In this document: positions 8,663 through 12,451 of the stretch, piece after piece
How the letters are laid out: each line of letters opens with the position of its first letter
Numbering within the stretch: the first letter of the stretch is position 1
From: Nitrospirota bacterium
GTDB taxonomy: Bacteria; Nitrospirota; Nitrospiria; Nitrospirales; NS-4
Reading direction: 5' to 3'
Length of the DNA stretch: 53,464 nucleotides
Assembly: GCA_005877615.1 (NCBI GenBank)
Contig: VBOD01000107.1
Coordinates: forward strand, 1-53,464
The notes under the pieces: model-generated
The model's database searches: none
What the model was told of the DNA's origin: nothing
Seen by the model: only the letters and a program-made list of their open reading frames with translations
Program-made: the position numbers and the translations under genes

Positions 8663-8713
8663 GGGGACTGGCTACTTTTCTTCTTTGCGTCCCAAGAAAA
8701 GTTGCCTGTCCCC
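8663..8713. repeat. Imperfect REP-like palindrome
   Basis: GGGGACTGGCTACTTTTC (8663-8680) vs GAAAAGTTGCCTGTCCCC (8696-8713), 2 mismatches in 18. Confidence 0.8.
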
Positions 8714-9501: not shown

Positions 9502-9737
9502 TAACAGCAGGGATTCGGATCTGAAGACAGAGGCGGGAAGAAGCGAAGGGGGAAATGGCGGCTGACTCTGAAATTAAAGAAGAAAGGCTAGAGGTTTTCA
9601 GCGATGATGAAATCGCGAAGGGTTATACACTTGATACCTAGTGCATCGCAGACGTCTGGAATATGACCCCTACCCATTCGGAAATGGAGCCAGTCCCCTG
9701 CTTCTGCTACACTTCCTTGCCATAACCGGAGACATCC

Positions 9738-10598
9738 ATGCGGGAAGAACGCCTACCGTACTATTACGAGGTGCTCGAGCTCCGACCCTCCGCATCGAAC
9801 GCTGAGATCAAAAAAGCCTGGCTTGAACTGGTGCAGGTCTGGCATCCCGATCGCTTTCACCATTCATCCAACCTGCACCGTAAAGCCGAAGCCCGAACAC
9901 AAATGATCAACCAGGCCTACCAAACCCTCAGCGACCCCTTGGCACGCGCACGTTATGATGCCATCACACGAAAAGCAGCCGCGTCCAAGCCACCCTCGCG
10001 CCCATCGCCTCCACCACGCCCTCAACCCACCCCTCGACCCCGCCAGGAATTCAGAGGTCCCCAATCCCTCATCATCCTCTCTCGGCCGGGTCAACCTAAA
10101 ATCCCGGTGCCCGCGATTCAAATGCTCGTCGACAGCAATGAGCACAGCCCCTACGACTTTCGCCGTCTCGTTCGAATCGCCGGGACCATTCGCCAAACAC
10201 TTCCCGCCGGTGACTATGCCATTGCTGAAGCCCCAGGACTGTTTTGCGTGGAGCGCAAGCCCGTGGCAGAGCTGTATGCGTCGACCTCGACTTCATCCGA
10301 TAACCGCGCTCGATTTCTGCGCGAACTCGAACGACTCCTCCCGTTCCCTTATCGGTTTATGATGATCGAAGGCCGGATCGACCAGGCCCAGGGAAAAGGG
10401 CGTTTAAGCGAATATCTCAAAAACGGAGTGATGGATTTCCTGGATGCCATCACGCTGAAATATGGGATCCAGGTTATTTTTGCAGATACCCGTGAAGAGG
10501 CGGAAGAACGCGTCGCGAATCTCGCGGCCATGCACTATGCATACTTCTATGCCGAACAAGAGGGACTTGGGCGTTCTCTCAGTGAGAACGATTTATAA
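9738..10598 (+). CDS. J-domain / ERCC4 (XPF-type) nuclease domain fusion protein
   Basis: N-term YYYEVLELRPSASNAEIKKAWLELVQVWHPDRF (HPD motif); Pro-rich linker; C-term VDSNEHSPYDF...LPAGDYAI...VERKPVAELYAS...RFLRELERLL...MMIEGRI...LDAITLKYGIQVIFADTREEAEERV matching bacterial/phage ERCC4 nucleases. Confidence 0.85.
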   Translation: MREERLPYYYEVLELRPSASNAEIKKAWLELVQVWHPDRFHHSSNLHRKAEARTQMINQAYQTLSDPLARARYDAITRKAAASKPPSRPSPPPRPQPTPRPRQEFRGPQSLIILSRPGQPKIPVPAIQMLVDSNEHSPYDFRRLVRIAGTIRQTLPAGDYAIAEAPGLFCVERKPVAELYASTSTSSDNRARFLRELERLLPFPYRFMMIEGRIDQAQGKGRLSEYLKNGVMDFLDAITLKYGIQVIFADTREEAEERVANLAAMHYAYFYAEQEGLGRSLSENDL

Positions 10599-10655: not shown

Positions 10656-10697
10656 GGGGACAGGCTACTTTTCAAAGTCGAAAAGTAGCCTGTCCCC
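10656..10697. repeat. Perfect REP-like palindrome (18-bp stem, 6-nt loop)
   Basis: GGGGACAGGCTACTTTTC-AAAGTC-GAAAAGTAGCCTGTCCCC; directly abuts the stop codon of the 10698-11327 gene. Confidence 0.95.
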
Positions 10698-11905: not shown

Positions 11906-12451
11906 TTACGGCTCGGGGATGTCCGAGTCCAGTTCCACGTTCCAGTAGAGGTAGTCCCGCCAGCTCTCCGGAGTGTTCCGGACCCCGATCGTGATCGTCA
12001 CTACCGGGTTCCACTTCGGCTTGAGCGGCTTCCGCATCAACTGCATGCCCGCCTCCTCCGGCATCCGCCCGCTCTTCCGATTGTTGCACCCCCAGCAAGC
12101 CGTGACAATGTTCTCCCAGGTCTTTTTCCCGCCCTTCGCGATCGGAATCACATGATCGAAGGTGAGGTCCTCCGTCCGGAACTTGTGCCGGCAGTATTGG
12201 CAGCGGTTCCCGTCCCGGGTGAAGATATTGATCCGGGAGAACTTCACGGAGCGGTGGGCTTCGCGGATCCTGACCAACTTCAACAGCCGCATAACCGCGG
12301 GCAGCTTGAAGGAGATCGAGACCCCGTGGATCTCACGATCATAGACCTCCAGCACCTCGACCTTCCCCTGCCAGAGCAGGGTGATGGCCTTCTGCCAATT
12401 CACCACGCGGAGTGGTTCGTAGGTGGCGTTCAAAAGTAGAGTCAGCTCCAT
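11906..12451 (-). CDS. HNH endonuclease family protein
   Basis: RDGNRCQYCRHKFRTEDLTFDHVIPIAKGGKKTWENIVTACWGCNNRKSGR (Cys pairs and DH...N...N). Confidence 0.9.
   Translation of the reverse strand: MELTLLLNATYEPLRVVNWQKAITLLWQGKVEVLEVYDREIHGVSISFKLPAVMRLLKLVRIREAHRSVKFSRINIFTRDGNRCQYCRHKFRTEDLTFDHVIPIAKGGKKTWENIVTACWGCNNRKSGRMPEEAGMQLMRKPLKPKWNPVVTITIGVRNTPESWRDYLYWNVELDSDIPEP

Follow-up and report, generated by a model that had tools for sequence, protein, structure and literature searches.

Eukaryotic repair complexes are known to contain ERCC4 folds without catalytic activity. In catalytic members of the XPF family, the fold carries the signature GDXnERKX3D, the first two acids of which are metal ligands; the basic residues and the last Asp do not contact Mg through their side chains, and what they do is only partly understood (PMC3905867). 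FANCM reads CDXnERRX3E and is without nuclease activity, and its nuclease domain on its own shows no DNA binding (PMC3905867).

Here we describe a bacterial gene in a 53,464-nucleotide stretch of a Nitrospirota genome (contig VBOD01000107.1 of assembly GCA_005877615.1, hereafter the window), in which a J-domain is joined to an ERCC4 fold (Table 1). Like FANCM and FAAP24, the fusion family combines the ERCC4 fold with a degenerate motif, which reads GDXnERRX3E in 25 of 52 fusions, and a Foldseek search with the ERCC4 part reached FANCM-FAAP24 (9hjo, E 3.9e-3). Unlike them, the fusion is bacterial, has a J-domain, and is without (HhH)2, a helicase or a second ERCC4 subunit. The nuclease domains of Hef and archaeal XPF (1j22, 2bhn) share the fold by profile and Foldseek searches, but have GDXnERKX3D and (HhH)2 and/or helicase domains, which the fusions lack. 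Stand-alone small ERCC4 proteins, encoded on the Rhodoferax plasmid NC_007901 (WP_011458674.1), twice in the Nitrospirota genome G283 and once in another, G242, are also related, and the likeness of the Rhodoferax protein extends to the C-terminal tail; they differ in having no J-domain and in keeping the full catalytic motif in all four cases.

On the chaperone side, the Nitrospirota loci L135 (1105-2367, minus strand; J-domain plus Sel1-like repeats) and L136 (1845-2330, minus strand; J-domain plus a Cys-rich segment) encode the same VWHPDRF-type N-terminal J-domain, 48% identical to that of the window protein, on other C-terminal modules. Judged from their sequences, these two fusions are modular J-domain shuffling. 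The C-terminal part of CbpA is DnaJ-type and not an ERCC4 fold. What CbpA has in common with the present architecture is a J-domain plus a second module able to take DnaK to DNA (PMC4344490, PMC2955964). In the open-access literature, we have found no description of an ERCC4 and DnaJ fusion, in Nitrospira or more broadly, and no report of a bacterial inactive ERCC4 fold tied to a chaperone.

Domain architecture of the window protein

Table 1. Features of the fusion gene and of its flanks, in window coordinates
Feature	Position	Strand	Evidence or remark
Whole gene: J-domain / Pro-Arg linker / ERCC4-fold protein	9738..10598	+	286 aa plus stop; translation and full-length homologues
DnaJ domain, residues 9-74	9762..9959	+	Pfam PF00226 E=1.2e-16; Foldseek J-domain matches
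HPD motif, residues 36-38, Hsp70-stimulating tripeptide	9843..9851	+	48/49 readable fused J-domains
Pro/Arg/Ser-rich linker, residues 77-105	9966..10052	+	length and sequence variable
ERCC4 (XPF-type nuclease) fold, residues 131-261	10128..10520	+	Pfam PF02732 E=3.7e-10; profile Hef 1j22 E=1.5e-4; Foldseek XPF/Hef E=6.6e-5
GD (Gly158 Asp159) of GDXnERKX3D	10209..10214	+	Asp absent in 9/52 fused homologues
ERK (Glu172 Arg173 Lys174)	10251..10259	+	Lys in 13/52, Glu in 38/52 fused homologues
Glu178 at final Asp position of GDXnERKX3D	10269..10271	+	Glu in 42/52 fusions; Asp in 4/4 J-less relatives
C-terminal helix and tail (AEERVANLAAxHYAYxxAEQxGLGRxLxExD)	10488..10595	+	median dN/dS 0.07; column identity 0.85
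Dispersed palindromic repeat GGGGACWGGCTACTTTTC, inverted pairs	8663-8713, 9681-9698, 10656-10697		outside the gene system

The reading frame (9738-10598, plus strand) runs through 286 codons with no internal stop on translation. Pfam, AlphaFold/Foldseek and the 52 homologues agree that J-domain, linker and ERCC4 domain lie in one ORF, as the first-pass annotation had proposed, and its HPD (36-38), GD (158-159) and ERK (172-174) motifs, together with the Glu (178) in place of Asp at the ERKxxxD position, were all confirmed in the window copy. It had also noted the absence of attached helicase and HhH domains, and the Pfam search of the window protein indeed returned no match to either.

Both the DnaJ and the ERCC4 Pfam scores exceed the curated cut-offs. 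The J-domain (Hsp40) fold is recognised by the PF00226 profile and by Foldseek matches to J-domains with a probability of 1.00, and the XPF/ERCC4 superfamily fold by PF02732 and by Foldseek matches to XPF and Hef. The structure models are of moderate confidence: the mean pLDDT is a modest 60.9 for the whole protein, the halves of which match J-domains and the Hef nuclease domain (1j22), and 62.2 for the ERCC4 part modelled separately, which has archaeal XPF and Hef as its top matches (E=6.6e-5). The ERCC4 fold assignment thus rests on three concordant methods, namely Pfam, a PDB-sequence profile search and a fold search; a PHROGs match to the 'ERCC4-type nuclease' family was also obtained (1.7e-7). 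Against the full DnaJ model TIGR02349 (NCBIfam) the protein scores 57.8 bits, compared with a cut-off of 377.2, and does so through its J-domain only, as expected of a J-domain placed on another body; the protein does not belong to the class A-B canonical DnaJ proteins as defined by the G/F region, zinc finger and C-terminal domains. Column identity reaches its minimum in the linker (0.66), where pLDDT is below 50. The C-terminal helix and tail are among the best-conserved parts and have a counterpart segment in the J-less plasmid relative.

Distribution of the fusion and selection on it

The same fusion, its parts in unchanged order and spacing, was found in 52 non-redundant Nitrospirota homologues (57-93% identity), by a scan that is sensitive to close relatives only and that fusions outside this phylum could escape. 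Full-length homologues are present in 17 of 59 relatives, the source genome included, from two families of one order (59-93% identical), and the carriers include Nitrospira defluvii FP929003 and N. moscoviensis NZ_CP011801. In a phylum-wide sample of 295 genomes, the ERCC4 domain occurs in 36 genomes of the order, and two more distant genomes have J-less versions. Two fusion loci labelled 'Gaiellales' and 'Nitrosospira' MAG fall within the Nitrospira tree and are probably mis-binned or mislabelled. Occurrence is patchy: in genera g5 and g8 the fusion is missing from several near-complete genomes, and G020 and G042 contain the TPR, GalE and TrmL genes that accompany it elsewhere, without the fusion itself. 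The copy in the g5 genome G017 clusters with genus g14, and some transfer of the gene between lineages is therefore likely.

A frameshift joining two genes, or an assembly chimera, can be ruled out for the window gene, given the uninterrupted ORF, the sharing of the fusion by 52 homologues and the low dN/dS. As separate observations, one fusion copy (L100, G166:C11:8895-9579) is split between two frames that overlap, apparently through a frameshift or a faulty assembly, and about 5 kb from an intact gene there is an additional ERCC4 copy, truncated to a C-terminal part (L099, G034:C16:99337-99507).

The fusion genes are under purifying selection. By the simple Nei-Gojobori method, after removal of saturated pairs, the J-domain has a median pairwise dN/dS of 0.12, the ERCC4 core 0.14 and the C-terminal tail 0.07. 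In the clade without both metal-binding acids, the medians are 0.07 (J-domain), 0.10 (ERCC4) and 0.06 (C-terminus), meaning that these genes, which also retain HPD, are maintained and not decaying. The only readable fused J-domain out of 49 without HPD is that of L053, which has HPA. HPD retention and low dN/dS together indicate that selection across the family has held on to the J-domain with its HPD and to the ERCC4 fold plus tail, and not to the chemistry of the nuclease.

Decay of the catalytic signature

The signature positions were scored over the 52 non-redundant fused sequences, and the complete GDXnERKX3D is found in none of them. The window protein departs from the catalytic XPF/MUS81/Hef motif in reading GDXnERKX3E, a form found in eight fusions, itself included. 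Apart from these and the 25 GDXnERRX3E members, five sequences have other ERR or ERQ forms, five have LRK or VRK with Glu172 gone, and nine have SG or GS followed by KRI, KCI or KPL, with Asp159 and Glu172 both gone; these last nine form a single clade (support 100/99). The metal-binding Glu172 is hence absent in 14 of 52 fusions, in nine of which Asp159 is missing too, and both acids are present in the other 38. The VDxxE motif (Asp132, Glu135) is retained in 50-51 of 52. GDXnERKX3D is intact in 4/4 J-less relatives, which are split from all fusions in the tree with 100/100 support. Most simply, the degradation of the catalytic site would have come after the fusion; this direction is an inference, the tree being rooted at its midpoint.

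Genomic context and candidate partners

The fusion gene is chromosomal. In one group of Nitrospira contexts, GalE is found upstream and AAA+ and TPR genes downstream; in the other groups, Tex precedes the fusion and TrmL, GalE and TPR follow it in conserved order (gene names were read from translations by inspection, the AAA+ domain alone being confirmed by Pfam). An AAA+ ATPase gene lies directly 3′ of the fusion at L048 (9144-10664) and at 12 other loci of genus g8. Across the 59 genomes, however, the two occur independently, with the AAA+ gene present without the fusion in G014, G020, G022 and others, and the fusion without the AAA+ gene in the source genome, G011, G026 and G032. The ATPase was dismissed as a partner, the association being mere linkage within one genus. 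Elsewhere in the window, an HNH endonuclease-domain gene (11906-12451, minus strand) is located close downstream of a siroheme-synthase-like gene.

The first-pass annotation had placed the gene alone in a repeat-bounded island, an idea that does not hold. The flanking palindrome GGGGACWGGCTACTTTTC occurs in about 18 copies genome-wide (0 for the backward-pattern control), and at the sister locus L064 the downstream palindrome is missing with the downstream genes unchanged. Since the repeats are dispersed and the downstream copy is absent at that locus, the 'island' is without special meaning. A REP-transposase island was also rejected, as one repeat-flanked segment on contig C26 contains no transposase-like ORF by eye.

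A full-length canonical DnaK is encoded in the fusion-bearing source genome, and on contig C6 a J-domain match adjoins the DnaK gene; this neighbour is presumably the canonical DnaJ. The proposed link to Hsp70 is thereby supported to the extent that sequence allows, with the HPD intact and DnaK encoded. In each of the 17 fusion-carrying genomes, the fusion is the sole PF02732 match. At Pfam sensitivity, then, a heterodimer with an active ERCC4 subunit was rejected, and with it a role of the fusion as the catalytically dead partner in an XPF-type pair.

Possible functions of the fusion

The protein is probably a specialised DnaK co-chaperone that uses a retired ERCC4 nuclease fold as its target-binding module. 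The nuclease residues have decayed and the J-domain has been kept, so that the protein most likely directs Hsp70 to a target instead of cutting DNA. This reading draws on the fusion and its conservation as computed here, on the lack of a full signature in all 52 sequences, on the inactivity of FANCM with its CDXnERRX3E, on purifying selection despite the loss of the acids, on an HPD kept in 48/49 J-domains along with the fold, on the intact signature of the J-less relatives and their separation from the fusions in the tree, and on the encoded canonical DnaK. In such a mechanism, the N-terminal J-domain with its intact HPD would recruit and trigger DnaK, its presumed Hsp70 partner, and a flexible Pro/Arg linker would connect it to the former XPF-type nuclease domain. 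The latter, presumably non-catalytic in vivo, would be retained for binding (compare FANCM, FAAP24, EME1 and ERCC1), and may position DnaK at branched or flapped DNA, the putative ligand, or at a protein bound there. DnaK brought to the ERCC4-marked site could then load, remodel or strip proteins.

Against this, Asp159, Glu172 and Lys174 are intact in the window copy and in seven other fusions, which makes nuclease activity in these lineages possible; moreover, the Lys to Arg and Asp to Glu changes are conservative, and VDxxE is retained beyond the expectation for a freely drifting active site. Alternatively, the protein could be a working structure-specific nuclease, with DnaK acting through the J-domain to control its loading or turnover, ERR and X3E being tolerated and a few clades secondarily inactive. 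Both metal-binding acids in most members, the near invariance of Asp132 and Glu135 and the fold matches to Hef and XPF agree with such an enzyme. On the other hand, it would have to operate without HhH or any other DNA-binding domain, no sequence has the full signature, Glu172 is gone in 14, purifying selection still acts on the nine-member clade that has neither acid, and FANCM, with a nearly identical ERRX3E motif, is inactive. We consider this alternative improbable, and likewise improbable the narrower proposal of an active nuclease in the few ERKX3E members, window copy included. For the family as a whole, the earlier suggestion of an Hsp70-regulated structure-specific nuclease is not borne out, as Glu is lost in 14/52 and Asp also in 9/52 with no full signature (0/52), and what is conserved is the HPD and the fold. 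A role as a defence or mobile-element effector in a repeat-bounded island, also suggested at first, appears very improbable. The patchy occurrence among near-complete genomes would suit it, as would the closest J-less protein, which is encoded on a conjugative Rhodoferax plasmid (about 39% identity over 97% of the domain) and itself shares 37% identity with ERCC4 nucleases from tailed viruses of haloarchaea. However, PADLOC gave weak generic REase_II matches only (best 3.5e-4), with neither a strong match nor a defence neighbourhood; the neighbours are housekeeping genes, in Nitrospira Tex, TrmL, GalE and TPR in conserved order, and the repeats on either side are palindromes found dispersed over the genome. 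The window ERCC4 domain has no match in phage genomes or viral contigs, the J-less ERCC4 set none in viral contigs, and the J-ERCC4 fusion no copy in phage, viral-contig or plasmid collections; with these phage and viral-contig searches empty, a phage or virus origin was dismissed.

A plausible history would be that a shuffled J-domain captured a small mobile-element ERCC4 nuclease, and that catalysis was then lost. The small ERCC4 protein of the Rhodoferax ferrireducens plasmid, with its catalytic motif intact, is encoded at L095 (5971-6543).

Within the co-chaperone reading, the target itself may be of more than one kind. The FANCM nuclease domain does not bind DNA alone, so the ERCC4 fold need not bind DNA here either. 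In one version of that reading, which is part of it and not an addition to it, the fold would be purely protein-protein or self-pairing, making a client-specific J-protein with no DNA role. This is conceivable, though on the unlikely side: the conserved features are the C-terminal tail and fusion-specific residues (RGP, RIAGT, DFLD, ANLAA), the ERCC4 core is near neutral (median net charge -1) and the 17 carrier genomes hold no second ERCC4 protein, whereas the linker and the segment ahead of the core are basic (median +7) and the J-less relatives have a complete nuclease signature, neither of which is decisive. A bacterial FANCM-like pseudo-nuclease, which would read branched DNA while its J-domain brings DnaK to remodel repair or replication proteins, seems to us rather unlikely.

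Implications

The fusion family offers a natural stepwise series of nuclease decay, from GDXnERKX3E to ERRX3E to SGXnKRI, and with three natural variants that differ in active-site state, Hsp70 stimulation and DNA binding or cutting become testable in vitro. The fusion is widespread in Nitrospira, which are important nitrite oxidisers. If the protein were indeed a FANCM-like pseudo-nuclease, it would provide a direct link of Hsp70 to fork or recombination structures.
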